46,776 nt of DNA. Origin: Planctomycetia bacterium. Its GTDB lineage: Bacteria; Planctomycetota; Phycisphaerae; Phycisphaerales; SM1A02. The notes under the pieces were generated by a model. That model had not been told where the DNA came from and did no database searches. It worked only from the letters and a program-made list of their open reading frames with translations. The translations under genes were made by a program, and so were the position numbers. The DNA is taken from positions 1-46,776 of the forward strand of contig SYGP01000038.1 in assembly GCA_005799495.1 (NCBI GenBank), read 5' to 3'. Shown here piece by piece: positions 1,907 through 46,776 of this stretch (position 1 is the first letter of the stretch; the number at the start of each line of letters is the position of its first letter).

Positions 1907-2584
1907 TCACACTCGAAGCGCACCCACATCGAGCGGAATGCACTGGCGGCTCGCGAAGGGTTCACCGCTCTCGCAGCCGATGCGGCTGCCAAAGTAAGTC
2001 CCTGCCGCGTGCACCCACTCGGGTATCCGTCGATTCGGTTCGTGCTGCACGAACTGACTGGCATACGCCAGGATCGCACGCTGTTTGCGCTCGGCAAATC
2101 CCGTCGTATCCACGATGAACGCGGGCTGCGGTACGGTGCGAAGGTGCGTCGCGAAGTAGTGGAAGATGTGGCGAACGGTGTGTGCTTCACCGACAAGATC
2201 GCTCTTGGTGAACTTTGCCGCGAAGCAAGCTGCCTCGATGAGGCTGGTCGCAGCGACATGGTCTGGGTGCGCATCCAGAGGGTGAGGCGCGAACACGATG
2301 TCCGCTCGGAGTGTTCGGATGGCGCCGGCAACGACATGCCGCGAAGCCAAGTCGTCCATGATCGCGCGATTGCGAAGTCCCAGCGCGAGCCGCTGGACAC
2401 CCAGGATCGAAGCCGCCTCGGCCGCTTCCTTGGCACGCGTCTGCGGATCGCCCTTGGGTGTCGGCTCGCCATCGCTGAGATCGACCAGGGTGACGGCATG
2501 CCCCTCCGCCGCGAGGCGAGCAATCGTTCCGCCCATGCCGAGTTCCTGATCGTCTGGGTGTGGACCGAAGACAGCGATGTTCAT
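1907..2584 (-). CDS. LmbE/PIG-L family deacetylase, BshB1-like
   Basis: A 225-residue zinc-dependent N-deacetylase. The metal-site motif 'GPHPDDQELGMGGTIA' lies at the N terminus and the second motif 'LDAHPDHVAA' at about 104-112. The overall layout ('DLSDGEPTPKG', 'FVVD'-like 'FIVDTTGF', 'YASQF') resembles BshB1, which removes acetyl from GlcNAc-malate in bacillithiol synthesis; other LmbE members act on GlcNAc-inositol or oligosaccharides. Start: an in-frame GTG lies three codons upstream, but the ATG at 2584 places the first beta strand directly after the start. It is the last gene of the long minus-strand train, 38 bases after the GT4 gene. Substrate is not established by the sequence. 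Confidence 0.85.
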   Translation of the reverse strand: MNIAVFGPHPDDQELGMGGTIARLAAEGHAVTLVDLSDGEPTPKGDPQTRAKEAAEAASILGVQRLALGLRNRAIMDDLASRHVVAGAIRTLRADIVFAPHPLDAHPDHVAATSLIEAACFAAKFTKSDLVGEAHTVRHIFHYFATHLRTVPQPAFIVDTTGFAERKQRAILAYASQFVQHEPNRRIPEWVHAAGTYFGSRIGCESGEPFASRQCIPLDVGALRV

Positions 2585-2622
2585 CGGCGACACTCTAGGT
2601 GCAGCACAGCACGCGGTCGAAC

Positions 2623-3816
2623 TCAGCGTGGCAGGTGCGCGCGCGGCGTCGATGGCCGTTCGAGAAGGTGGCGGTAGAGCGCGAGTAGGCGTTTCACCAT
2701 CGCATCGCCGTCGAACGCACTGCGCACCTCCGCCTGCCCGCGTGCCGCGAGCCGAGCGGCATGCGAGGGATCCGACAAGACCTGCTCGATCGCTGCGCGC
2801 AGGCGCAGTGGATCACCGACGGGCACGAGCCATCCAGTCTCGCCAGCCTTGCACACCTCGGATGCACCGTCGATGTCCGCCGCGATCACGGGGCGTGCGC
2901 ACAACAGCGCCTGGACGACCGCGCGCGGCAACCCTTCGCGCCACGACGGATGCACAACCACATCACTCGCCGCGAGGAGCGCTGGAACCTGATCGGGCGG
3001 CACGAGGCCGCTGAGGATCACTCGGTCGCGGATCCCCTCACGCACAAGCCGCTGTTCGAGCCGCGTCCTCCACCACCCATCGCCGATCCACAGGAGCATC
3101 AACTTGTCGCGCGTGCTCGCGCGAAGGAGCGGCAGCACGGCCGTGATGAGATCGTCGTGCCCCTTCAGTTCCGCCAGACGCCCCAGCGTCGCCAACACTG
3201 TCGTGTTCGCTCCAACACCCAGACGATCGCGCGCTGCCGCACGAAGCAGGTGTGCTCCCAGAAAGGGAGCCGTGTCGAGCCCGCTGCGGATCGTCGAATA
3301 CTGCGCTAGCGTTCCAATCCCTTCGGCAAGCGCTTGCCGAGTCATTGAATCGGCGACACTCACAATCGCATGGCAACGCCGCGCCGCGAATCGCTCCGCC
3401 AGCACATAGGCCCGGTAGATCACGCGCGATTGGAAGCGGTGGAAGGGCAGCCCATGCACCGTGTGAACGACAGCCGGAACCCGCAGCCGCCATGCGGCAG
3501 CACGACCGAGAATGCCAGCCTTCGACGAGTGCGTGTGAACGACATCGGGCTTCCAGTCGCGGATCAACTGCGTCAGTTGACGGAAGCAGCGGAGGTCACG
3601 CAGGGGAGCGACCTGTCGAACCAAGTCCGGCACTTCGAAGCATGCGAGCCGATCATCCGCCTGCGCCCGCGGCAAGAGCGATCCCTCGGGGCCGTAGATC
3701 GGTCCGTACGCCAGCGCGACCAAATGCCCCTCGTTCGCGCTGCCGACACACGACAGCAGGGTGTTCTCCTGCGAACCGCCCACAATGAGTCTCGTGGAGA
3801 GGTGCAGGATTCTCAT
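2623..3816 (-). CDS. Glycosyltransferase family 4 (GT-B fold)
   Basis: A 397-residue GT-B enzyme that should transfer a sugar from a nucleotide donor at the cytoplasmic face. The N-terminal acceptor domain starts 'MRILHLSTRLIVGGSQENTL', the GT4 pattern with a Gly-Gly turn. The C-terminal donor domain has 'GRLAELKGHDDLI', 'WIGDGWWRTRLEQ', 'VVHPSWREGLPRAVVQALL' and 'GETGWLVPVGDP'. In the E-x7-E region the second Glu appears as Gln ('EGLPRAVVQ'). Its start overlaps the truA stop by 4 bases, and the BshB1-like deacetylase follows, so the two could act on one glycoside. Its sequence does not look like BshA, the malate GlcNAc-transferase. Donor and acceptor are unknown. Confidence 0.88.
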   Translation of the reverse strand: MRILHLSTRLIVGGSQENTLLSCVGSANEGHLVALAYGPIYGPEGSLLPRAQADDRLACFEVPDLVRQVAPLRDLRCFRQLTQLIRDWKPDVVHTHSSKAGILGRAAAWRLRVPAVVHTVHGLPFHRFQSRVIYRAYVLAERFAARRCHAIVSVADSMTRQALAEGIGTLAQYSTIRSGLDTAPFLGAHLLRAAARDRLGVGANTTVLATLGRLAELKGHDDLITAVLPLLRASTRDKLMLLWIGDGWWRTRLEQRLVREGIRDRVILSGLVPPDQVPALLAASDVVVHPSWREGLPRAVVQALLCARPVIAADIDGASEVCKAGETGWLVPVGDPLRLRAAIEQVLSDPSHAARLAARGQAEVRSAFDGDAMVKRLLALYRHLLERPSTPRAHLPR

Positions 3817-35788: not shown

Positions 35789-36847
35789 ATGACGGCGATG
35801 CGCAAGGCACTGATCACGGGGATCACGGGGCAGGACGGCAGTTACCTCGCCGAGTTGCTGCTGGCAAAGGGCTACGAGGTGCACGGCATCATCCGCCGCA
35901 GTTCCTCCTTCAACACTTCGCGCATCGATCACATCTATCAGGATCCGCATGAACGCGGCGCGCGCCTGCGGCTGCATTACGGCGACCTGACCGACGGGAC
36001 GGGACTGCTCGAGGTGCTCGGCAAGGCGGAGCCGGATGAGATCTACAACTTGGGAGCGCAGAGCCATGTCCGCGTATCGTTTGATCAGCCGGTCTACACG
36101 GTGGATGCCGTGGCGACGGGGACGATGCGGCTGCTGGAGGCGCAGCGCATCCATGAACGGCAGACGGGGCGAAAGGTCCGCTTCTACCAGGCAAGTTCCA
36201 GTGAGATGTATGGCAAGGTCGCGGAGGTGCCGCAGCGCGAGACCACGCCGTTCCATCCGCGGTCGCCCTATGGATGCGCGAAGGTCTTTGCCCATTCGAT
36301 CGCGGTGAACTACCGCGAGAGTTACGGAATGCACATCAGTTGCGGCATCCTCTTCAACCATGAAAGTCCGCGGCGCGGCGAGACCTTCGTGACGCGCAAG
36401 ATCACGCGGGCGGTCGGGCGCATCAAGTTGGGACTTCAGCAGAAGCTGTACCTCGGCAATCTCGACGCGCAGCGCGACTGGGGATTCGCGGGTGAATATG
36501 TCGATGCCATGTGGCGCATGTTGCAGCAGCCAACGGGCGACGACTTCGTTGTGGCGACCGGGAAGATGATTGCCGTCCGCCGCTTCTGTGAACTGGCGTT
36601 CGCGCATGTGGGGCTTGATGCGGGCGATTTCATCGAGATCGACCCGCGCTACTTCCGCCCGGCGGAGGTGGACGAGTTGCTCGGCGATCCAGCGAAGGCG
36701 CGCACCAAGTTGGGGTGGCAAGCGACCTGCACCGTCGAACAACTCGCCGCGATGATGGTGGACGCCGACTTGGAAGTCGCCGCACGCGAGCGCACGCTTC
36801 GGAACGCCGGCCACGCGATGCCCGTGGGGCAGGGGCATGATCAATGA
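35789..36847 (+). CDS. gmd: GDP-mannose 4,6-dehydratase
   Basis: Converts GDP-D-mannose to GDP-4-keto-6-deoxy-D-mannose, the precursor of GDP-fucose, GDP-rhamnose and related sugars. The 352-residue SDR enzyme has the NADP site '[19 protein letters not shown]', '[20 protein letters not shown]', '[18 protein letters not shown]', '[17 protein letters not shown]' and the catalytic Tyr-x3-Lys in '[18 protein letters not shown]'; '[20 protein letters not shown]' is diagnostic for Gmd. ATG at 35789 is chosen; 35798 is also plausible. No 4-keto reductase is in the window. First gene of the polysaccharide locus; its stop overlaps the next start (ATGA). Confidence 0.95.
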
Positions 36848-37968
36848 GGGGTGGTTCGCTGGTTGTTTTCGCCATCCTGATCAGCGCAGCGGTGTGTGAT
36901 GCTGCTCGGTCGGTCCATGCCGGCTCGGCATTGGCGGCACAGGCGGACTCCGCTGCGGGTCGGGCCGAGGCGCAGCCTGCGGTGACCCCTGATCCGATCA
37001 TTCTGTTCGATGTGCTGCCGAGTGCGAACGCGCGCGAGCGGGCGCGAATCATGGGTGCCCAGAAGTTCTATGTGTGCTACCAGAGTGCTGATCCGAATGC
37101 GGGCAAGACGGGGCAGATCGATTCGGGCAAGGTTGTCGAGGCAATTCGGCGGGAAACACAGGGGGTACGGCCAGACTGGGGCATGCTTGACTTTGAGGAT
37201 CCATTCATCGAAAACCTGAAGAAGGGTCCGCCGTCTCCAGAGTGGAAGCGCACGGTGATGACCATGGTTGCGCTCGTGCAGGCGGTCAAGACCGAGTTCC
37301 CGCAGACGAAGTGGACGTACTACGGAGTCCCAAACTTGGACCTGTGGATGGACGGATCAAGCTGGGACCGTTTGAGCGACGAAGACAAGAGAAAGAGACT
37401 TGTCGAGGCGGTCGCTATGTTTGACCCAATCACATCGCAGCTCGATTGGGTGAGCCCGACGGTGTATGGCAAGTATGACCCTGCGATGCAGACCCCGGTC
37501 AATGTGGAGTCCACCCTTCGTGCTGAGCGGGCGTGGCGCGTCGCTCAGGTCGGGGCAGCGCGTTTGTGTGCAGGAGGCAAGCCAGTTCTGCCGACGATCG
37601 ATCCGTTCTGGACACCCGGGGGGAAGGCCCCCTATGCCCGCCTCATCCCCCGCCGATTCTTCATCGAGCAACAGGTTGTTCTCACTCTGGAGGCTGGGGC
37701 TTCCGGAGTCGCCCTCTGGACCGCGATGGAGTACTTCCTCGATGTGGCCATTCAAGGAAAGACCCACTCGGGAGTGGTCGAGCCGAACTTTGGTCCGGAT
37801 GAGTGGCGCAGTGCGCTGACCAAGGACTTCTTGGAAGGACAAGCCCCGGGAGCGTGGTCTGATCCCCAAGTCAGACAGGCGCTTTCGACGGCAACATCAG
37901 ACGCGATCGTCCGTTCGATGATGGACATCAGACAGTGGGCAGCCGATAGGACTTTGCCACCGCAGTGA
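36844..37968 (+). CDS. Exported protein with hyaluronidase (GH56)-like active-site landmarks
   Basis: A 374-residue protein. Signal peptide '[20 protein letters not shown]', then an Ala-rich linker and a domain from about 50 to 310 that looks like a TIM barrel. Key blocks resemble hyaluronidases in order: '[12 protein letters not shown]' (Asp116-x-Glu118, compare IDFE/IDWE), '[11 protein letters not shown]' (compare W-G-Y/F-Y-G/L-x-P), '[10 protein letters not shown]' (Tyr208), and '[16 protein letters not shown]' with Trp292 (compare GAAGVxLW). Family knowledge: GH56 cuts beta-1,4 bonds to GlcNAc with substrate-assisted catalysis. Similarity is by eye and distant, so a GH56-like fold is a hypothesis. 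The ATGA overlap with gmd ties it to glycan synthesis; it could trim or edit the product. Confidence 0.6.
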
Positions 37969-38010: not shown

Positions 38011-38631
38011 ATGCACATCGGCATCCCATCCATCGCCTGCGGCAACTTTGCATCGGTGGTCAACACGGTTGCACGCGCGGGAGGTCAGGCCACTCTCCTT
38101 GCGCGGCCGGAGCAAGTACGCGAGTGTTCCAAGATCATCATTCCTGGAGTGGGGGCATTTGATCACGGTATGCGCTCTCTCCATGATGAAGGCTGGAGTC
38201 AGCCACTGCACGAGTTTGCAACGCAACTCAAGCGTCCTGTGTTGGGCATCTGCCTCGGGATGCAACTGATGTGCCGCTCGAGCGAGGAGGGTGTTCTGCC
38301 TGGGCTTGGTTGGATCGATGCGCAGGTGCGTCGTTTCAAGTTTCCAGAGGGGTCATCGCTCAAGATTCCTCATATGGGGTGGAATACGATTGTGGTGTGC
38401 CGGGACAATCCCCTGATTGCTCGCACCGATGGTGAGCAGCGCTTCTACTTTGTGCACTCCTATCACGCGGTGTGCAGTCAGCAAGAGGATGTCATCGCGA
38501 CCACTCGCTACGGATCCGATGTCACGGCAGCATTCCAGCGTGACAATGTGATGGGCGCTCAGTTTCACCCAGAAAAGAGTCACCGCTTCGGGCTGGGACT
38601 GATCCGCAAGTTCGTGGAGTTGCCGTGCTGA
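38011..38631 (+). CDS. hisH: HisH-type glutaminase (HisH2/WbuY) for sugar acetamidino modification
   Basis: A 206-residue class I glutamine amidotransferase that releases ammonia from Gln for a partner. The catalytic triad is visible: Cys81 in 'RPVLGICLGMQLM', His186 and Glu188 in 'MGAQFHPEKSHRFG'; also 'IIIPGVGAFDHGM', 'GLGWIDAQVRRF', 'IPHMGWNTI' and 'FYFVHSYHAV'. The same fold serves histidine synthesis, but here it is followed by a HisF2-like and a WbuX-like gene and no other his gene, so it most likely feeds ammonia to amidation of a UDP-sugar or glycan residue. Its stop overlaps the next start by 7 bases. Confidence 0.9.
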   Translation: MHIGIPSIACGNFASVVNTVARAGGQATLLARPEQVRECSKIIIPGVGAFDHGMRSLHDEGWSQPLHEFATQLKRPVLGICLGMQLMCRSSEEGVLPGLGWIDAQVRRFKFPEGSSLKIPHMGWNTIVVCRDNPLIARTDGEQRFYFVHSYHAVCSQQEDVIATTRYGSDVTAAFQRDNVMGAQFHPEKSHRFGLGLIRKFVELPC

Positions 38632-39395
38632 AGCACCGAGTCATTCCCTGTCTCCTGCTCCGCCAAGGCGGTCTTGTCAAGACGAAGCGATTCCGGGATC
38701 CCGTCTACGTGGGGGACCCGATCAATGCGATTCGGATTTTCAACGAGAAGGAGGTGGACGAACTCATGGTGCTCGACATTGAAGCGAGCCGTGAGGGCGG
38801 CGAACCGGACTTCGAACTGATAGGTCAGTGTGCGGGCGAGTGCATGATGCCGCTCTGTTATGGAGGTGGTGTCCGTTCACTGGAACAGGCGCGGCAACTG
38901 TTCGCGCTTGGGGTGGAGAAGGTCTGCATCCAGTCGGCTGCGCTGAGCGACATGAAGATCCTTCGCGAGATCGCCGATGTCTTTGGCAGTCAGAGCGTCC
39001 TGTTCAGCTTGGATGTTCGGTCTGGACTGTTTGGGAGGCGATTTGCCTACCACGCTGCGAAACGCATGGATGATTCTCGGCAATGGCATGAGTTGTTGCA
39101 GGCAGCCGTCTCCCATGGCGCAGGGGAGATCATGCTCAATGCCGTCGACCGGGATGGCATGATGAAGGGGATGGATGTCGCGCTCATACGCGAAGCGGCA
39201 GGGCAACTTTCGGTTCCGTTGATTGCCGGTGGGGGAGTGGGATCGTTGGCGGACATTCGGCAGGCTGTGGAGGCTGGTGCGAGTGCCGTGAGCGCGGGAG
39301 CATTCTTTGTTTTCTATGGACCGCATCGGGCAGTCTTGATCACCTATCCGCGTTACCAGGAGTTGGAGGCGTTGCTCCAGGGGGTCCAACGATGA
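38625..39395 (+). CDS. AglZ/HisF2-type acetamidino modification protein (WbuZ-like)
   Basis: A 256-residue (beta/alpha)8 protein related to HisF. It opens 'HRVIPCLLLRQGGLVKTKRF' where true HisF has PCLDV; the catalytic Asp near position 11 is Leu here, while the second Asp ('VLFSLDVRSG') is kept. 'VGDPINAIRIFNEKEVDELM', 'MPLCYGGGVRSLEQARQLF' and 'GVEKVCIQSAAL' match HisF2/WbuZ proteins of surface-glycan clusters rather than HisF. It probably channels ammonia from the HisH-type glutaminase to the WbuX-like enzyme. GTG start at 38625. Its stop overlaps the next gene (ATGA). Confidence 0.92.
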   Translation: MLKHRVIPCLLLRQGGLVKTKRFRDPVYVGDPINAIRIFNEKEVDELMVLDIEASREGGEPDFELIGQCAGECMMPLCYGGGVRSLEQARQLFALGVEKVCIQSAALSDMKILREIADVFGSQSVLFSLDVRSGLFGRRFAYHAAKRMDDSRQWHELLQAAVSHGAGEIMLNAVDRDGMMKGMDVALIREAAGQLSVPLIAGGGVGSLADIRQAVEAGASAVSAGAFFVFYGPHRAVLITYPRYQELEALLQGVQR

Positions 39396-40504
39396 ACCCA
39401 CAGAAGCGCGTGTGCGCTCGGTGCATTATGGATACGACGATTCCCGGAATTCGATTCGATTCGCAGGGGGTTTGCAACTTCTGTCAGGAGTTTGAGCGGG
39501 AAGCAGCCCATGTGATCTCGCCAGACCCCGCCGAGCAGAGCGCGAAGCTGGATGCGTTGGTTGCGGAAGTGAAGGCGCTCGGGAAGGGCAAGCGATACGA
39601 CTGCATTGTTGGTGTGTCTGGAGGTGTGGACAGTTCTTGGGTGCTTGTGAAGGCGGTGCAGTTGGGGCTGCGGCCACTTGCAGTCCACATGGACAACGGT
39701 TGGAACTCCGAGCTTGCCCAGAACAACATTGCCAATCTGGTGCGTGGTCTGGGGGTTGATCTCTACACCCATGTCATCGACTGGCAGGAGTATCGCGGTC
39801 TGATGCAAGCCTTCTTCGATGCCGATGTCATCGATGTCGAGCTCCTCTACGACAATGCGATGTACGCGGTGAACTTTCGCTCGGCGGCTCGGCACAGGCT
39901 GCGCCACATGCTGTCGGGATTGAATCGCGCGACCGAGGGTATGCACATGCCGCCAGAGTGGGTGTGGAACAAGTTTGATCGGAAGAACATCGTCTCCATT
40001 GCCCGTCGCGGCCGCGTCAAGATCAAGACTTTCCCCGCCATCGGCACGGTCGCCGCCGGGTGGTACTCGCTCTGGCACAAGATCCGCCTCGTCTGGTTCC
40101 TGGATCTCATGCCCTTCCGCAAGTCGGAGGCGCTCGCGTACCTGCAAGAGCATTGTGGGTACAAGCCCTATCCGTACAAACACTACGAGTCGGTCTTCAC
40201 CCGCTTCTACCAGGGCTACATCCTGCCGAGAAAGTTCGGCGTCGACAAGCGAGTTGTCCATCTCAGCTCGTTGGTGATGAGTGGGGACATGAGTCGCTCG
40301 CATGCATTGGAGCTCATGGGTGGCATCGCCTATCCGAGCCAGCAGGCGCTGGAGGACGACATTGCCTACTTCCTGAAGAAGATGCGGTGGACGCGTGCCG
40401 ATCTCGATGCGTACATCGCTCGTCCTCGGAAGTCTCATGACCAGTACGGTTCAGAAGTCGCGCTCTTCGGCGTGGCGCAGCGACTGTTTCGGGCAATCAA
40501 GTGA
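39392..40504 (+). CDS. N-acetyl sugar amidotransferase (WbuX/WbpG/PseA family)
   Basis: A 370-residue PP-loop ATPase that should adenylate the acetamido oxygen of a sugar and replace it with ammonia, giving an acetamidino group. The PP-loop is 'CIVGVSGGVDSSWVLVKAV' (SGGVDSS at 76-82). A zinc site is formed by Cys8/Cys11 ('VCARCIMD') and Cys28/Cys31 ('VCNFCQEF'). 'HMDNGWNSELAQNNIANLV' and 'MPFRKSEALAYLQEHCGYKP' are family blocks. Known relatives: WbpG with HisH2/HisF2 in Pseudomonas aeruginosa O5 O-antigen, PseA in Campylobacter flagellin glycans. Overlaps on both sides (4 bases each) couple it to HisF2 and the flippase. Confidence 0.93.
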   Translation: MNPQKRVCARCIMDTTIPGIRFDSQGVCNFCQEFEREAAHVISPDPAEQSAKLDALVAEVKALGKGKRYDCIVGVSGGVDSSWVLVKAVQLGLRPLAVHMDNGWNSELAQNNIANLVRGLGVDLYTHVIDWQEYRGLMQAFFDADVIDVELLYDNAMYAVNFRSAARHRLRHMLSGLNRATEGMHMPPEWVWNKFDRKNIVSIARRGRVKIKTFPAIGTVAAGWYSLWHKIRLVWFLDLMPFRKSEALAYLQEHCGYKPYPYKHYESVFTRFYQGYILPRKFGVDKRVVHLSSLVMSGDMSRSHALELMGGIAYPSQQALEDDIAYFLKKMRWTRADLDAYIARPRKSHDQYGSEVALFGVAQRLFRAIK

Positions 40505-42066
40505 CGAACGCCGCCGAAACGCAGGGCGACTCCCGTCTCCGTGCGCCGGCGACGCCCAGCCTCACTTCCACAGCAGTCGGGGGGACGCTGTGGACTTCTG
40601 GGCAGGCAATCCTGAACAAGGGCGCGGTGCTCGTTGCCACCTGGGCGATCGCCTTTCGCTTGTCCGAAGAGGATGTCGCGCTCGCATCGCTGGTGACCGT
40701 CCTGACGAAGTTCTTCTGCGTGCTTCCACCGCTCAACATGGGCGACGTGCTGGTCAGCCGAGGTGCTTCGTTTTCGCTGCTTGCAGCGACTGCCGCACGA
40801 GTCGCCCTTCGCTGGAGCATCTTGGTGATCGCTGCCGTCGCGCTGTGTTCGCCGCTGATCGCCCTCACCTATCGGCAGTTTCCGTCGAGTGCGCTGTTGG
40901 CGCTCCTTGGTGCGTCACTGTTCCGAGTGTTGGCCGAAGCCCTGCAGGTGACGAGTCTCGTCGCACTTCGAATGGGTTTTCGCTACCGCACGATTGCTGT
41001 GGTCGACGGAACGCTGCAACTTTGTGGATCAGTGCTGACTGTTGCTCTCGCGTTCATGGGAGCCGCAGCTTGGGCCATGGTGCTTCCTCTCTCCCTTGTC
41101 GCCATCGCCAAGGCTGTTGCCTATCGACTGCTGCGAGGCGGCCCTTCGCAGGAGCATGCTGGCGTCTCCGTGGAACAAGTCCGCGGCATCGCGCGGGACT
41201 TTCGTGTTGCAGGCTTTGCACAGTATGTGCACAGTGTGGTTGACACGCTTCCCATCCTGATGTTGGGGTATTTCGGCAGTCAGGCACAAACCGGGATCTA
41301 CGCCTTTGCGTTCAACCTTGCAGCGCAGGCCAACGCAGTCCTCGGGGGACAGTTGTCGGGCGTTCTGCAGCCTGTGCTTGTGCAACTGGGACACGACACG
41401 CAACGTCAAGTGAGGGCCTTCCTTCGGACCCTTCGAGTTCTCAGTGCCGTGGTGGTGCCGATCTGCCTCTGCCAAGCGGTCTTTTCCCAAAGCCTCTTCA
41501 ACGCGGTGTTCCCCGATCGCTGGCAGGTTGCTGTCCCTGTATTCGAGGCACTTTCGATGAGCGAGGCGTTCTTCTTTGCTTCAGCCCCGACCATGGCATT
41601 GCTGCGCGCACAAGGGAGGTTCGGCGCATTCCTGGGTTGGCAATTGATTCATGCTCTTGCGTTGGGGAGTGCTTTGCCGCTCGTCGCCGCATCGCACGGG
41701 GCCCTCGGGGTCGCCGTTCTCGGCACCCTGTTGTGGGCTGTCAGCCTTCCCTGTGCAGTGTGGGTCTGCGTGCGACCGATGGGCGAATCGCTGACAACGG
41801 TCCTGAAGTCTTTCGCCGCACCGTGGCTGACTGGGATTCCGCTTGCAGCGTTTGCGACGATCATTGGGAGGGAACTCAGCCTGTTCGGCATCTGGGGCGA
41901 CATCGTGAATCTGGTTGTTGTTGCGCCCATCATGTTGGTGGTCATGCTGCTTGCGACACGCGTGAGTCAACCAGATGTCTTTGCGCAGTTGTGGTCGCTG
42001 TGGAGCAATGCGCTCTCAAGCGTGAAGCGTGCTGTGCTCATCTCTCGAGGTATGCAGGGTCGATAG
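40501..42066 (+). CDS. Oligosaccharide flippase family protein (Wzx-like)
   Basis: A 521-residue membrane protein with about 12-14 hydrophobic helices. The opening 'VGGTLWTSGQAILNKGAVLV' and 'FYGS'-like segment 'DTLPILMLGYFGSQAQTGIY', followed by 'FNLAAQANAVLGGQLSGVLQ', match the polysaccharide synthesis (MOP/Wzx) superfamily, which moves undecaprenyl-linked repeat units to the periplasm. The GTG start overlaps the amidotransferase stop (GTGA). It follows the modification genes, so the acetamidino sugar is probably part of the unit it exports. Confidence 0.88.
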   Translation: MTNAAETQGDSRLRAPATPSLTSTAVGGTLWTSGQAILNKGAVLVATWAIAFRLSEEDVALASLVTVLTKFFCVLPPLNMGDVLVSRGASFSLLAATAARVALRWSILVIAAVALCSPLIALTYRQFPSSALLALLGASLFRVLAEALQVTSLVALRMGFRYRTIAVVDGTLQLCGSVLTVALAFMGAAAWAMVLPLSLVAIAKAVAYRLLRGGPSQEHAGVSVEQVRGIARDFRVAGFAQYVHSVVDTLPILMLGYFGSQAQTGIYAFAFNLAAQANAVLGGQLSGVLQPVLVQLGHDTQRQVRAFLRTLRVLSAVVVPICLCQAVFSQSLFNAVFPDRWQVAVPVFEALSMSEAFFFASAPTMALLRAQGRFGAFLGWQLIHALALGSALPLVAASHGALGVAVLGTLLWAVSLPCAVWVCVRPMGESLTTVLKSFAAPWLTGIPLAAFATIIGRELSLFGIWGDIVNLVVVAPIMLVVMLLATRVSQPDVFAQLWSLWSNALSSVKRAVLISRGMQGR

Positions 42067-42076
42067 ACTCCTCAGG

Positions 42077-42931
42077 ATGACGCGTTCCGCGGACCGGTTG
42101 GCTCAAGAAATCGCGTGTCCCCTTTGCCAGTCGCCCAGCTTCAAGCCTTGGGCGGTTGAGAATGGCTTCTGCTGCGTTCGGTGCGATGGCTGTGGGCTGC
42201 TCTATGTAAACCCACGACCGCGTCAAGAGGACATTGATCGTGGAGTGCAGCTTGGGGTTCACGAAACGGAACGCAAGCTCAATGTCGTGGGGAAGCGAAT
42301 GGCATGGAAGGTTCGGCAGGCGCGCAGCATCATCCGATCGGAGTATGGCGATTGGATGACCCGAGGCACATCCGTCCGTTGGCTCGATGTTGGCGCGGGG
42401 TTTGGTGAGTTTGTCGAGGGCGCGCAGTCTGTCCTCCCGTCGGGAAGCACTGTGGAGGGCATCGAGCCCATGATTCCGAAGGCGGAGGATGCCCGGGCAC
42501 GCGGCATTCGGGTGAAGACCGGACTGTTGGAAGAAGTTCAGGGCACATACGACGCGATTTCCTTGATCGATGTGTTCTCTCATCTCCCTGACTTTCGCGG
42601 CTTCATGAACTCCTTGCGCGGACTCCTCTCGCCGGGCGGCGAGGTCTTCCTGAAGACTGGCAACGCAGCGGACCTTGTGACGCGAGAGGAGTTCCCCGGT
42701 CCCCTGACCCTGCCGGATCACCTGATGTTTGGTGGTGTTTCCCAGATCAGCCGATTCGTTGAGGATGCGGGATTCTCCGTCGCGCGACTCTCGCAACATC
42801 GGATGGATGGCATTGGGTACTCACTGCGAAACTACGCGCGAAAACTGTTCGGACACCCGGTCGCCGTGGGCCTGCCGTATTGCTCGAAGGCGCGCGTGCT
42901 CTATGTCCGCGCGCGATTGAGATCGTCGTGA
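42077..42931 (+). CDS. Class I SAM-dependent methyltransferase with N-terminal zinc ribbon
   Basis: A 284-residue protein. A four-Cys ribbon ('CPLCQSPSF' Cys14/17 and 'CVRCDGCGLLYVNPRP' Cys36/39) precedes a Rossmann methyltransferase: motif I 'RWLDVGAGFGEFVEGA' (about 102-116), 'VEGIEPMIPKAEDARARGIR', 'YDAISLIDVFSHLPDFRGF' and 'LLSPGGEVFLKTGNA'. This pattern is common in O-antigen and exopolysaccharide clusters, where such enzymes methylate a sugar or nucleotide sugar. Acceptor unknown. ATG at 42077 lies 10 bases after the flippase stop. Confidence 0.87.
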   Translation: MTRSADRLAQEIACPLCQSPSFKPWAVENGFCCVRCDGCGLLYVNPRPRQEDIDRGVQLGVHETERKLNVVGKRMAWKVRQARSIIRSEYGDWMTRGTSVRWLDVGAGFGEFVEGAQSVLPSGSTVEGIEPMIPKAEDARARGIRVKTGLLEEVQGTYDAISLIDVFSHLPDFRGFMNSLRGLLSPGGEVFLKTGNAADLVTREEFPGPLTLPDHLMFGGVSQISRFVEDAGFSVARLSQHRMDGIGYSLRNYARKLFGHPVAVGLPYCSKARVLYVRARLRSS

Positions 42932-42956: not shown

Positions 42957-44342
42957 ATGATCCAGATTGTCACGCTCGCGTTGTTCGTCCTGACGAGCGT
43001 GGCCTCGGTGTTTTCTCCTCGCGCCGCGGCTGCGCTCGCCATTGCGATGTACGTCTTTGAGCAAGCCCTCCAAGGCTCGGTGGGCATTTTCGCGAGCCGA
43101 CCCGCGCTCGCCAATGTCATCGTGGCGTTGGTTGTTGGGGTGAGCGTTGCCCGCGACGCACTTGCTCGGGGCGATCTCATGCGGGGCATGCTCAATCCAG
43201 CGTTCGCTGGAACACTCTTCATCTATTCGTGGTACCTGATTTCGTTGGCATGGTCGCCCTCGACCGACGCGGGGCTCAAGCTCATTCAGGCAAACGTGCC
43301 CTACTTCGTGCTGTATGTCCTTGTGCTTCCTCTGTTGTTGCGAAGCATCGACGAAGTCATGCCCATCGCGCGCTGGGTGATGTTGATCGGGATGTTCATC
43401 CTTGGCTCGATCTTGTTCAATCCGAGTTTTACCTTCAAGGATGGGCGCCTCAGTCTTGTGTTGTCGGCGTTGGTTCGGACGAACCCACTGGTCTTGGGTG
43501 AGTTCGCCGGCATCGTGATGATCTTCGCGGCGCTGGTGACGACTGGGCCCGGCGGAGTTCTGTTTCCTTTGGTCCGAATCGGCGCATTCTTGATCGGCTC
43601 AATCATTGCCCTTCAGTCTGGATCGCGTGGGCAACTCGTGTTCGCGTTGGCGGTGGTGGTGGGGTTCATTCCGGTTGCCCGGAGGCTGAAAAGTGTTGGC
43701 GGTTTCTTCGGCACTGTCTTTCTCGTGACCACAGTCCTCGGTGGGACACTGTTCGTGGCATCGAAGGTCCTGTTTCTCGATGTGCTCGCGCGCTGGGACG
43801 CCAAGAACATCGCGCAGGGCAGCAGCCATCGACTGAGCAACATTCTTGAGCTTGGGGAGGCGTGGGCGCGGCAACCGCTCGCATGGATTTTTGGTCTCGG
43901 CGGCAACGCATACAGCGCAGTGACCGCGACGGGTGGTCTGGAGGAGTATCCCCACAACATCTTTGCCGAGATCACCGCTGAACTCGGTCTCATCAGCCTG
44001 CTGGTCTTCACTGCGATGCTGCTGGCGACCGTGCGTTCACTCCTGTGGCTCCACCGTCACTTCGCAGATGATCCGCAGCGCCGAGTTGCCGTCGCATCGC
44101 TTGCGGCACTGTTTGCGTACCAGTTTTTCCTCACGAACAAGCAAGGCAATCTCTGGAGCAATGTGTTCCTCTTCGCGATGATGATCATCGTCGCTCGCGT
44201 GCGTATTCGAATGCAGCAGGAAGAACAATTGGTCGAGTGGGAGGGACGCGGCGATTTCTTCACGGAGCAAGGTTCGGGCTCGACTCAACAGCCCTCCGCG
44301 TACCCTCCGGAAGACCAACGCGCACCATTTCCCGCAATCTGA
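42957..44342 (+). CDS. O-antigen ligase/polymerase family membrane protein (Wzy/WaaL-like)
   Basis: A 461-residue protein with about 11 hydrophobic helices and a large periplasmic loop. 'SGSRGQLVFALAVVVGFIPV' and the loop motif 'EEYPHNIFAEITAELGLISL' (the H-N-x-x-x-E-x-x-x-E-x-G pattern) are typical of the PF04932 ligase/polymerase family, which polymerises or transfers undecaprenyl-linked glycans at the periplasmic face. Wzy and WaaL cannot be told apart by sequence; beside a Wzx-like flippase, a Wzy role is more likely. The C-terminal 45 residues are Glu/Gln-rich and cytoplasmic. Confidence 0.87.
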   Translation: MIQIVTLALFVLTSVASVFSPRAAAALAIAMYVFEQALQGSVGIFASRPALANVIVALVVGVSVARDALARGDLMRGMLNPAFAGTLFIYSWYLISLAWSPSTDAGLKLIQANVPYFVLYVLVLPLLLRSIDEVMPIARWVMLIGMFILGSILFNPSFTFKDGRLSLVLSALVRTNPLVLGEFAGIVMIFAALVTTGPGGVLFPLVRIGAFLIGSIIALQSGSRGQLVFALAVVVGFIPVARRLKSVGGFFGTVFLVTTVLGGTLFVASKVLFLDVLARWDAKNIAQGSSHRLSNILELGEAWARQPLAWIFGLGGNAYSAVTATGGLEEYPHNIFAEITAELGLISLLVFTAMLLATVRSLLWLHRHFADDPQRRVAVASLAALFAYQFFLTNKQGNLWSNVFLFAMMIIVARVRIRMQQEEQLVEWEGRGDFFTEQGSGSTQQPSAYPPEDQRAPFPAI

Positions 44343-44367
44343 CCAGGTGGCGTTGTCCCGCGGAAAC

Positions 44368-45468
44368 ATGGCCGAAGCCTTCCTCATCACAAACTCGCGC
44401 TGGGAGGAGCCTCCGCGAATTCGGCATCAAGTCGCACGCTTGCTTTTGGATCACAGTGTTCGCGTGGCGTTCTTCGAACGTCCATCCATGGCGTGGGTGA
44501 GACAACCGTGCCCCATCCGAGAAGTCACGAAGGACTTGGCGATTGTCCAGACCAAGTGCCTGCTGCACGCCCAACTTCGCGTCGTTCCGCCGCTTGCCGC
44601 GACCAATGCCGCGTTCAGCCGGTGGGTGCTGCGCGCGAGACGGGACTCACTTGGATGGTCGAAGGATGCAATCATCATCAACTTCATGCACGATGGGGCG
44701 TTCCTGCGTGATGTCTTTCCTCGGCAGCGTCTGATCACCCTGATTCACGATGACTTTGAAGCCCAATCTCACTTTCCCTGGTTCAGACATGTCACGCGCG
44801 CGCTTCGGGCGACCTGTGAGGTCAGTGATCAAGTGTTGGCTGTTTCCACCCCGCTTGTTGCTCGCTTGAAGCAGTGGTCTCCCTGTGAGTTGTTCCTTCC
44901 GTGGTCTGTGCGTGAGTATCGCGCTCCCTCTGCGGCTGTGGGCTCGCGAAAGGTGTTGTTGTTCTGGGGTTCCGTGGACACCGCCATCGATGTGGATGTG
45001 GTACGGCAGCTCTCCGCGGAGTGCGTTCGTCGAGGGTCCGATTGGAAAGTGCTGTTCGTTGGTCCAACCGAGCGATCCGATCGACGACGCAGGATGACAA
45101 CGATTCTCAAGCAGTTTCCGCAGGTCGAGATCCATCCGGCAGCTCCGCTTGACGATCTGCCGATTGACTCAGTCCTTGCCGCGGTCATTCCGTACGGTGG
45201 TGCCCCGCACACCAAGGCCATCACGCTGGCAAATAAGTCCATGCAGTTACTGGCCTGTGGATTGCCGCTCTTGATCTCAGGCATGCCAGCATTCCTGCGC
45301 CAACCCTTCATCCTTCGCATCGGAGAGGACGGCGAAGTACGCGACTGTTGTGATCAAGTGATGGATCAGTTTGCCGAGTGGCAGCCCTTGGTACGGGCGT
45401 TCGTCGAGTCTCAGCGTCCAAGCGATCGACTCAGACAGCTCGGCTTCGGCAAGGCGGATTCGGGATAA
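44368..45468 (+). CDS. Glycosyltransferase-like protein (GT-B type)
   Basis: A 366-residue protein. N-terminal part: 'FLITNSRWEEPPRIRHQVAR', 'RVAFFERPSMAWVRQP', 'RQRLITLIHDDFEA' and 'CEVSDQVLAVSTPLVARLK' as in GT1/GT4-like enzymes of polysaccharide loci. C-terminal donor domain: 'VLLFWGSVDTAIDVDVV', 'WKVLFVGPTE', 'AAVIPYGGAPHTKAITLANK' and 'LACGLPLLISGMPAFL'. Donor and acceptor are unknown. ATG at 44368 is chosen over a GTG at 44347; neither has a clear ribosome site. It follows the polymerase gene by 25 bases. Confidence 0.8.
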   Translation: MAEAFLITNSRWEEPPRIRHQVARLLLDHSVRVAFFERPSMAWVRQPCPIREVTKDLAIVQTKCLLHAQLRVVPPLAATNAAFSRWVLRARRDSLGWSKDAIIINFMHDGAFLRDVFPRQRLITLIHDDFEAQSHFPWFRHVTRALRATCEVSDQVLAVSTPLVARLKQWSPCELFLPWSVREYRAPSAAVGSRKVLLFWGSVDTAIDVDVVRQLSAECVRRGSDWKVLFVGPTERSDRRRRMTTILKQFPQVEIHPAAPLDDLPIDSVLAAVIPYGGAPHTKAITLANKSMQLLACGLPLLISGMPAFLRQPFILRIGEDGEVRDCCDQVMDQFAEWQPLVRAFVESQRPSDRLRQLGFGKADSG

Positions 45469-45489: not shown

Positions 45490-46554
45490 ATGCTGAAGTT
45501 CGCCCTCATCGGCTGTGGTCGCATCGCGAAGCGGCATTCCGAACTCCTCGGTCACAATCAGATTGAAGGCGCCCAACTGGTGGCGGTGAGCGACATTGTT
45601 CGGAGCCGCGCAGAGACAATCGGCCAGCAGTTCGGTGTCCCCGCATATTCCGACATGCACGACATGATGACCAGGGAGGCGGTCGATGTCGCGGTCGTGC
45701 TGACGGAGAGCGGCATGCATGCGGAGCATGTGGTGGCACTCGCTCGACATGGGAAGCACATCATGGTGGAGAAGCCGATGGCGCTGACGCTCGGCGATGC
45801 GGACCGCATGATCGCGGCCTGCGACGCGGCACGGGTACGCCTCTTCGTGGTGAAGCAGAACCGCTTGAATGTGCCAGTCGTGAAGCTTCGGCAGGCGCTC
45901 GAGGCCGGTCGCTTCGGAAAGCTGGTCATGGGAACGGTCCGCGTACGGTGGTGCCGCGACCAGTCGTACTACAAGCAGGACAAGTGGCGAGGGACTTGGG
46001 CGCTCGATGGCGGCGTGCTGACCAATCAAGCGAGCCACCACATCGATCTGCTTGAGTGGATGATGGGCGATGTGGAATCGGTGTTTGCGATGAGCCGCAC
46101 CGCACTTGTGGACATCGAGACCGAAGACACGGCAGTCGTGGCACTGCGGTTCATGAATGGTGCGCTCGGCGTCATCGAAGCAACGACGGCTGCGCGGCCG
46201 AAGGATCTCGAGGGATCCATCTCGATCCTCGGTGAAGGCGGGACGGTCGTGATCGGCGGCTTTGCCGTGAATGAGATGCTGACCTGGAACTTCGCGAAGA
46301 AGGAAGCGGGCGATGAGGAAGTGCTGGCGAAGTACTCGGTCAACCCACCCAGCGTGTACGGCTTCGGGCATCAGGCTTACTACGACCATGTGGTCAAGAG
46401 CATCCGAGAGGGGACATCGCAATTGGTCGATGGGCTCGCGGGCCGCAAGAGCCTGGAACTGATTTCAGCGATCTATGAGTCGATCGAGACGGGGAAGGAA
46501 GTATCGCTGCACTTCCGGCCTTCACGCTGCCGACTTGGGCACCGTCATGGGTGA
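45490..46554 (+). CDS. Gfo/Idh/MocA oxidoreductase, WbpB/WlbA-like
   Basis: A 354-residue NAD(P)-dependent dehydrogenase. Rossmann opening 'FALIGCGRIAKRHSELL', 'VVLTESGMHAEHVVALARHG', the conserved 'IMVEKPMALTLGDADRMI' with the Lys of EKP, then 'VKQNRLNVPVVKLRQAL', 'GTWALDGGVLTNQASHHIDL' with the His-x2-Asp pair, and 'EDTAVVALRFMNGALGVIEA'. This run closely follows WbpB/WlbA, which oxidise UDP-GlcNAcA at C3 before transamination. Gene product is thus probably step one after UDP-GlcNAc 6-dehydrogenase in a UDP-2,3-diacetamido uronate path. The stop overlaps the next gene by 8 bases. Confidence 0.88.
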   Translation: MLKFALIGCGRIAKRHSELLGHNQIEGAQLVAVSDIVRSRAETIGQQFGVPAYSDMHDMMTREAVDVAVVLTESGMHAEHVVALARHGKHIMVEKPMALTLGDADRMIAACDAARVRLFVVKQNRLNVPVVKLRQALEAGRFGKLVMGTVRVRWCRDQSYYKQDKWRGTWALDGGVLTNQASHHIDLLEWMMGDVESVFAMSRTALVDIETEDTAVVALRFMNGALGVIEATTAARPKDLEGSISILGEGGTVVIGGFAVNEMLTWNFAKKEAGDEEVLAKYSVNPPSVYGFGHQAYYDHVVKSIREGTSQLVDGLAGRKSLELISAIYESIETGKEVSLHFRPSRCRLGHRHG

Positions 46555-46776
46555 ACCGAGGCTGCTCCAGAGCGGCATCGTGGATGTCCGCTTCGGCGAT
46601 CGGGTCAAGGTGGTACAGCCTGTGAACATCTACGGCTGCGCAATCGGTGACGACTGCTTCATTGGGCCGTTCGTCGAGATCCAACGAGACGTGGTGATTG
46701 GCGCGCGCTGCAAGGTGCAGTCACATGCGTTCGTCTGTGAACTGGTCACGATCGGCGATGACTGCTTCATCGGCCA
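46547..46776 (+). CDS. Left-handed beta-helix acyltransferase, WbpD-like (partial)
   Basis: The first 76 residues of a hexapeptide-repeat transferase that runs off the window. Hexapeptide turns are visible in 'VVQPVNIYGCAIGDDCFIGP' and 'VVIGARCKVQSHAFVCE'. The 'FVEIQRDVVIGARCKVQSHA' segment resembles WbpD/WlbB, the N-acetyltransferase that acetylates the 3-amino group of UDP-GlcNAc3NA with acetyl-CoA. It directly follows the WbpB-like gene with an 8-base overlap. In the known pathway the aminotransferase (WbpE) acts between the two and may lie just outside. Confidence 0.85.
   Translation, partial: MGEPRLLQSGIVDVRFGDRVKVVQPVNIYGCAIGDDCFIGPFVEIQRDVVIGARCKVQSHAFVCELVTIGDDCFIG

Follow-up and report, generated by a model that had tools for sequence, protein, structure and literature searches.

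It was concluded that three overlapping genes near the end of a planctomycete contig probably form an acetamidino-transfer cassette inside a surface-polysaccharide operon, as judged from both the chemistry and the setting. The contig, SYGP01000038.1 of assembly GCA_005799495.1 (Planctomycetia bacterium; Phycisphaerales, SM1A02), was analyzed over 46,776 nucleotides, referred to below as the window. As far as the sequence tells, the cassette is a fresh example of already known machinery, found in a planctomycete. Its genes and their predicted products were as follows.

38011..38631, + strand: HisH2-like class I glutaminase, putative NH3 donor; 206 amino acids, ATG start; Cys81-His186-Glu188; model TIGR01855, 210.9 bits (cut-off 105.4).
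38625..39395, + strand: HisF2/AglZ-like (beta-alpha)8 barrel, proposed NH3 conduit; 256 amino acids, GTG start; model NF038364, 334.8 bits (cut-off 310); Asp11 replaced by Leu, Asp130 present.
39392..40504, + strand: WbuX/WbpG-like PP-loop N-acetyl-sugar amidotransferase with a Zn-type tetracysteine; 370 amino acids, ATG start; model TIGR03573, 246.9 bits (cut-off 203.2).

The HisH-like and HisF-like frames overlapped by 7 bases, the HisF-like and WbuX frames by 4, and the WbuX frame overlapped the following flippase gene by another 4. The profile E-values were 1.5e-62 for the HisH-like protein, 2.9e-100 for the HisF-like protein and 3.8e-73 for WbuX, and the trio recurred with its order unchanged in two further genomes of the genus; hence, the open reading frames were considered real rather than chance ones. 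A preliminary description of this DNA had reported three genes overlapping by 4-7 bases, the residues Cys81-His186-Glu188 and the motifs PCLLL and SGGVDSS, all of which were located in the translations. Its naming of the trio as a HisH2-HisF2-WbuX cassette was upheld, as NF038364 and TIGR03573 were passed and the hisF model was failed.

The HisF-like protein carried the motif VIPCLLL, where aligned solved HisF proteins had PCLDV or, in the case of 1gpw, ACLNV. Residue 11 was thus Leu, and residue 130 was Asp. In a passage of PMC11350729, Asp11 is given as the general acid and Asp130 as the general base of HisF. A barrel lacking Asp11 should not cyclise N'-((5'-phosphoribulosyl)formimino)-5-aminoimidazole-4-carboxamide ribonucleotide. 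The protein scored 168.6 bits against the hisF model, below the cut-off of 294.55, and 267.5 bits against the WbuZ model, below the cut-off of 299.7.

A set of 110 HisF-like sequences was compared, four short ones (L077, L098, L050 and L027) having been dropped. The residue counts include three duplicates, which were removed for a quick tree of 107 different sequences. A sequence was called WbuX-linked when a BLAST match to the WbuX of the window lay within 4.5 kb; this rule missed L043, L044 and L047, which were counted as unlinked. Asp11 was absent from 74 of the 78 WbuX-linked sequences (72 Leu, 1 Met and 1 Gln) and kept in 4. In the 80 sequences without Asp11, Arg5, Glu46, Lys99 and Glu168 were each invariant (80/80) and Asp130 was present in 77. 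We take Arg5, Glu46, Lys99 and Glu167 of HisF to be the channel-gate residues, although a search of paper passages for three of these residues gave no hit. In the quick tree, the 77 Asp11-less sequences made up one side of a branch with a Shimodaira-Hasegawa-like approximate likelihood ratio support of 97, apart from 18 planctomycete HisF sequences, 5 HisA sequences and a WbuX-linked class of seven that kept Asp11 (support 100). The histidine-pathway references, taken from planctomycete genomes only, did not form one branch (2 changes). The HisF-like protein of the window and those of two genus relatives nested in a branch of 18 sequences (96), whose other members came from Pseudomonadota, Chlorobiota, Nitrospirota, Bacteroidota and Synergistota.

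Two side observations were made on this family. The class that keeps Asp11 (L043, L044, L045, L046, L047, L048 and L082:1983) formed the separate branch of seven already mentioned, and residue 130 was Glu in the four members counted with a nearby WbuX. At locus L017 (- strand) of genome G048, a 760-residue frame (160-2439) contained a HisF-like portion whose residue 11 is Phe, along with much additional sequence, and the HisH-like protein lay in a separate frame (2235-3728) overlapping it.

In WbuX, the SGGVDSS motif began at residue 76, and the tetracysteine C8, C11, C28 and C31 was present. An SGGxDS PP-loop and a CxxC...CxxC tetracysteine are described in a passage of PMC10607449 as the motifs that define N-acetyl-sugar amidotransferases. 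Among 44 aligned WbuX sequences, the PP-loop residues S, G, G, D and S were invariant, and the four cysteines were present in 44, 41, 43 and 41, respectively. The predicted structure, based on 44 sequences, had a mean predicted local distance difference test score (pLDDT) of 93.9. It matched 8wex, a solved N-acetyl-sugar amidotransferase, with a Z of 26.1 and a root-mean-square deviation of 3.2 over 312 residues, the next entry reaching 11.8. The likeness to this Legionella enzyme (LpNASAT) thus lay in the fold, the PP-loop and the Zn tetracysteine, whereas the sequences were 19% identical over the aligned residues (phmmer E 2.1e-05). Separately, two WbuX-family genes were seen in tandem (407 and 385 bits) at G098:C22:132680-134994.

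We proposed that HisH2 would hydrolyze glutamine and release NH3, which would travel through the HisF2 barrel, where Asp130 and the presumed channel-gate residues are kept and the general acid Asp11 is lost. WbuX, using adenosine triphosphate (ATP), would then condense the NH3 with an N-acetyl group on a nucleotide sugar to form an acetamidino group. This chain of glutaminase, barrel conduit and ATP-dependent amidotransferase is suggested by family knowledge and gene anatomy, with HisF2 proposed as a pure NH3 conduit; an amidine is very probably the product. Chemistry converting ATP to adenosine monophosphate is described as likely for this amidotransferase family in a passage of PMC10607449. 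The favored acceptor would be uridine diphosphate (UDP)-2,3-diacetamido-2,3-dideoxyglucuronic acid or a closely related sugar, for whose synthesis the neighboring WlbA-like 3-dehydrogenase, WbpE-like aminotransferase and WbpD-like acetyltransferase would serve. The products of the downstream genes would subsequently assemble, flip and polymerize the modified sugar into a glycan that is presumably surface-located.

The genes downstream of the trio in the window were assigned as follows.

40501..42066, + strand: Wzx-type flippase (Polysacc_synt_3, 73.6 bits, cut-off 23).
42029..42931, + strand: S-adenosylmethionine-dependent methyltransferase.
42957..44342, + strand: Wzy/O-antigen ligase-like membrane protein (weak match to PF04932, 26.7 bits, below the 31.7 cut-off).
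44347..45468, + strand: presumed glycosyltransferase (no Pfam or NCBIfam match; assigned from its context and a 35% identical paralogue on contig C47).
45490..46554, + strand: Gfo/Idh/MocA dehydrogenase (Gfo), proposed to oxidize the sugar at C3 (WbpB/WlbA role); nearest solved relatives 3q2k/3q2i.
46547..46776, + strand: WbpD-like hexapeptide N-acetyltransferase, first 76 codons, cut by the contig end; the remainder is L161:1-249 on contig C47.

A flippase and a polymerase had been placed directly downstream of the cassette by the preliminary description. The flippase was indeed there; the Wzy-like gene came only after the methyltransferase gene and was matched weakly. The description had overlooked the 3-amino-sugar genes around the cassette, including the one in the last 230 bases of the window. 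Contig C47 of the same genome opened with acetyltransferase residues 77-159, which were 95% identical to the copy in the genus member G009, and the two contigs probably adjoin, the break falling inside the acetyltransferase gene. After the rest of this gene, C47 encoded a DegT aminotransferase sharing 97% identity with its G009 counterpart, then a presumed glycosyltransferase and proteins like FnlA, FnlB and FnlC, and the same gene order was found on a single contig in G009. A 374-residue protein, secreted as judged by eye from its N-terminus, was encoded directly upstream of HisH2 (36844-37968) in all three cassette-bearing genus members, with 83% identity, and 43% over a part cut by a contig end. 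It had no Pfam or NCBIfam match and no solved relative at E up to 5, and its predicted structure (pLDDT 43.7) was unusable.

The installation of an acetamido group at C3 is described in a passage of PMC10622841 as oxidation, transamination and acetylation. With its Gfo, DegT and acetyltransferase genes, the operon appears to hold the set needed for a C3 acetamido group. The nearest solved relatives of the Gfo protein were 3q2k (304 bits) and 3q2i (299 bits). The DegT protein of G009 matched 7b0d (labelled glutamine--scyllo-inositol transaminase) with 326 bits, QdtB with 295 and WbpE with 261, and the best solved relatives of the acetyltransferase were a WxcM-like protein (62 bits) and then a group holding 3mqg and QdtC (52-54 bits). 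We take 3q2k and 3q2i to be WlbA and 3mqg to be the matching acetyltransferase; their database labels are oxidoreductase, dehydrogenase and lipopolysaccharide acetyltransferase. The gene neighborhood favors a 3-acetamido sugar as the acceptor, which we consider somewhat likely. The diacetamido uronate acceptor proposed in the preliminary description is likely rather than proven, as the operon also holds candidate genes for UDP-N-acetyl-L-fucosamine (UDP-L-FucNAc) on another contig.

The system was compared with that of Pseudomonas aeruginosa O5, where the trio presumably takes the form HisH2/HisF2/WbpG and stands with WbpA-B-E-D-I. The likeness consisted of the trio together with WbpB-, WbpD- and WbpE-like genes. 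In contrast to P. aeruginosa, no separate WbpI and no linked WbpA were found here, the Gfo protein was nearer to 3q2k/3q2i than to the chain labelled wbpB, FnlABC-like genes shared the operon, and the host was a planctomycete. According to a passage of PMC10607449, WbpG forms the C3 acetimidino group, leading to 2-acetamido-3-acetamidino-2,3-dideoxy-D-mannuronic acid.

Cassettes of other bacteria were retrieved by a contig scan with seven WbuX queries, which gave at least 80 loci; 79 were counted, L090 being omitted because it came from the same metagenome-assembled genome (MAG) as L072. Flanking sequence was fetched over no more than 7 kb, and many contigs ended before that. HisH- and HisF-like matches were both present in 65 of the 79 loci. 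Matches to all three of Gfo, acetyltransferase and DegT, at E up to 1e-8 and whatever their identity, were present in 14, and among those both Gfo and acetyltransferase reached at least 60% identity in 6 (L070, L071, L072, L075, L077 and L089), L070 being a genus relative. The WbuX proteins of Pollutimonas (L071), a Burkholderiales MAG (L072), Chlorobium (L075) and Candidimonas (L077) were 60-62% identical to that of the window, and their flanks held Gfo (71-73%), acetyltransferase (62-70%) and DegT (44-49%). Unlike the operon of the window, these four flanks showed FnlA matches of 34-35% at most and no FnlC match. A UDP-sugar dehydrogenase nearest to TuaD adjoined Gfo in L071. Compared with the acetyltransferases next to four cassettes from other phyla, the 76 residues encoded in the window showed 57-62% identity. 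Gfo at 63% identity or more was found in 10 of 27 genomes, namely three of the genus and 24 with close cassettes.

Several observations weigh against parts of this interpretation. The loss of Asp11 was not universal, since seven WbuX-associated HisF-like sequences retain it; besides the four linked ones, these include L043, L044 and L047, which came from loci retrieved for their WbuX match. Each of the four presumed gate residues was likewise present in 21 of the 26 unlinked sequences with Asp11, five of the 26 being HisA-like. The gate residues are common to true HisF, and therefore they would show a usable channel rather than its new use. The HisH-like protein passed TIGR01855, the ordinary HisH model. 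Concerning the acceptor, a pass of NF038364 does not discriminate between acceptors, since L074 also passes. The Gfo protein failed NF040723 (112.9 versus 450 bits) and was distant from the chain labelled wbpB (34 bits), and no NCBIfam cut-off was passed by DegT or the acetyltransferase. The same operon also includes the FnlABC-like genes, 2.3-5.6 kb beyond the acetyltransferase on C47. The UDP-sugar dehydrogenases that are WbpA candidates were on contigs C4 and C19, unlinked to the cassette. The single WecB-family gene of the host genome (G000) was the FnlC-like one, with no further WbpI found there, and no acetyltransferase match at 1e-15 was found in the genus member G007 (80% complete). 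Moreover, 45 of the 79 loci had neither Gfo nor acetyltransferase at any identity nor FnlA at 50% or more in the fetched flanks. The genome of L074 (G436, Polaromonas) yielded no Gfo at 1e-60 and no acetyltransferase at 1e-15.

This last genome bears on the strongest alternative, in which the same cassette and chemistry act on UDP-L-FucNAc, made by the FnlABC of the operon, to give the acetamidino derivative of L-fucosamine (L-FucNAm), as reported for Escherichia coli O145. The FnlA-, FnlB- and FnlC-like genes on C47 would supply this acceptor, although the FnlA-like protein scored 608.2 bits, below its cut-off of 730, and the FnlB-like one was recognized by eye from its translation. FnlA and FnlC stood near the cassette in L074 and L094 at 60-70% identity, and the HisF2 of L074 fell in the same branch of 13 sequences (90) as that of the window. 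Participation of E. coli O145 WbuX in L-FucNAm synthesis is described in a passage of PMC10607449. The O145 system resembles the present one in its WbuX-family amidotransferase, its HisF-like partner and the presence of FnlABC-like genes in the operon; it differs in that the WbuZ cut-off was failed here and the 3-amino-sugar module was nearer to the cassette. Further, FnlA and FnlC occurred together in 2 of the 79 loci (L074 and L094), both at 50% identity or more and at any identity, versus 14 for the 3-amino-sugar trio (6 at high identity), and FnlB at 40% or more was found in none of the 79. The L094 genome, in addition, held Gfo (74%) and the acetyltransferase (78%) outside the fetched stretch. 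An acceptor of the UDP-L-FucNAc type was thus considered possible, though clearly less probable than a 3-acetamido sugar. An attempt to read the acceptor from the AglZ/HisF2 versus WbuZ model scores was dropped: L074 passes NF038364 despite the absence of Gfo and acetyltransferase matches noted above, and L057 passes both models.

Since no dedicated WbpI was found, yet the 3-acetamido module and the FnlABC-like genes share one operon, it was also suggested, with still less confidence, that the glycan may contain a D-gluco-configured uronic acid with an acetamidino group, or two different sugars so modified.

It was considered improbable that the operon is decayed or silent, or that the contig is foreign to its bin. 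The cassette gene was found in just 3 of 19 genus genomes, and the guanine-plus-cytosine content fell from 0.636 (bases 1-33000) to 0.596 (38011 to the end), which could be read in favor of such an origin. The frames are open, however, and two separate genomes of the genus also carry the trio together with Gfo and DegT, in one case with the entire order preserved. In addition, C47 resumes inside the very gene where the window stops. Only weak repeat pairs, 70-78% alike, were found around the operon.

Another candidate was amidination of a nonulosonic acid, such as a pseudaminic- or legionaminic-type sugar, as on the flagellin of Campylobacter. The acetamidino pseudaminic acid of Campylobacter jejuni is presumably tied to such a trio. 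Its occurrence on the flagellin is noted in a passage of PMC3068675. No NeuB-family gene was found in G000, G007 or G009 with a model that detected one in 9 of 14 control genomes, and this acceptor was judged highly unlikely.

The HisF2 of the window passes the model named AglZ/HisF2, a likeness to Methanococcus maripaludis (MMP1081), whose acetamidino genes we assume to be AglXYZ. There, the product is a flagellin N-glycan, whereas a Wzx/Wzy-like operon is present here. Deletion of MMP1081, reported as unpublished in a passage of PMC2952790, removes the acetamidino group and the fourth sugar.

The histidine pathway was judged from hisF, hisH, hisD and imidazoleglycerol-phosphate dehydratase (IGPD, hisB), with hisG, hisC and hisI left unsearched, in 19 genus genomes (G000-G018) that were 70-98% complete. 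In the host genome (2.36 Mb, 97.8% complete), the sole HisF-like and the sole HisH-like gene were those of the cassette, and hisD was not found by profile search. Over the genus, the hisD model matched 2 of the 19 genomes (G006 and G009), above its cut-off solely in G006, and IGPD was found in none of the 19. The hisD and IGPD models detected their targets in 13 of 14 control genomes, Bacillus subtilis being missed by both, which limits the weight of these absences. The NF038364 model gave matches in all 14 controls, above its cut-off in none, yet in only 3 of the 19 genus genomes, always at the cassette. Histidine synthesis thus seems to have been lost in the genus, which would explain why no further hisH or hisF was found. 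With no other hisF or hisH, no hisD and no hisB found, a histidine role for the trio is very unlikely. The preliminary description had named two observations that together would speak for such a role, namely a genome free of other hisH/hisF genes and a grouping of the HisF-like protein with HisF; the former was found and the latter was not. A true histidine-pathway HisHF pair beside an unrelated PP-loop protein was therefore scarcely credible, despite the TIGR01855 pass, a barrel shared with HisF (144 bits to HisF-LUCA) and the lack of other detected hisH or hisF, since Asp11 was gone, the hisF cut-off was failed, the protein was separate from HisF in the quick tree, and neither hisD (G000) nor IGPD (19 genus genomes) was found.

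The best listed WbuX match was that of L070, Planctomycetota bacterium WB4_1_1472 (93%), which had the same gene order and 83-98% identity across ten shared genes. Among the matches listed, the next were Pseudomonadota and Chlorobium proteins (59-63%), and another planctomycete, L123, reached 42%. The enzyme is not unique to the host, as WbuX scored above its cut-off in 24 of 392 sampled Planctomycetota genomes. Since the closest cassettes outside the genus, among the matches listed, belong to other phyla (about 60% identical), the operon was probably acquired horizontally from other bacteria. In the library of papers searched, none named an acetamidino group in planctomycetes.

Acetamidino sugars are known mainly from archaea and, among pathogens, from O-antigens and flagella. 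The well-supported cassette described here predicts a positively charged sugar modification in a planctomycete, and it stands in unusual company: a probable cross-phylum acquisition, an apparent histidine auxotrophy and two candidate acceptors. It suggests that such a gene set moves across phyla. It also carries a warning for annotation, because TIGR01855 does not separate HisH2 proteins from HisH, and an automatic procedure would therefore probably name a histidine enzyme in a genome otherwise seemingly unable to make histidine. Finally, the many natural HisF2 proteins that lack Asp11 and have invariant gate residues would be well suited to studies of ammonia channelling in a barrel that no longer performs the cyclase reaction.

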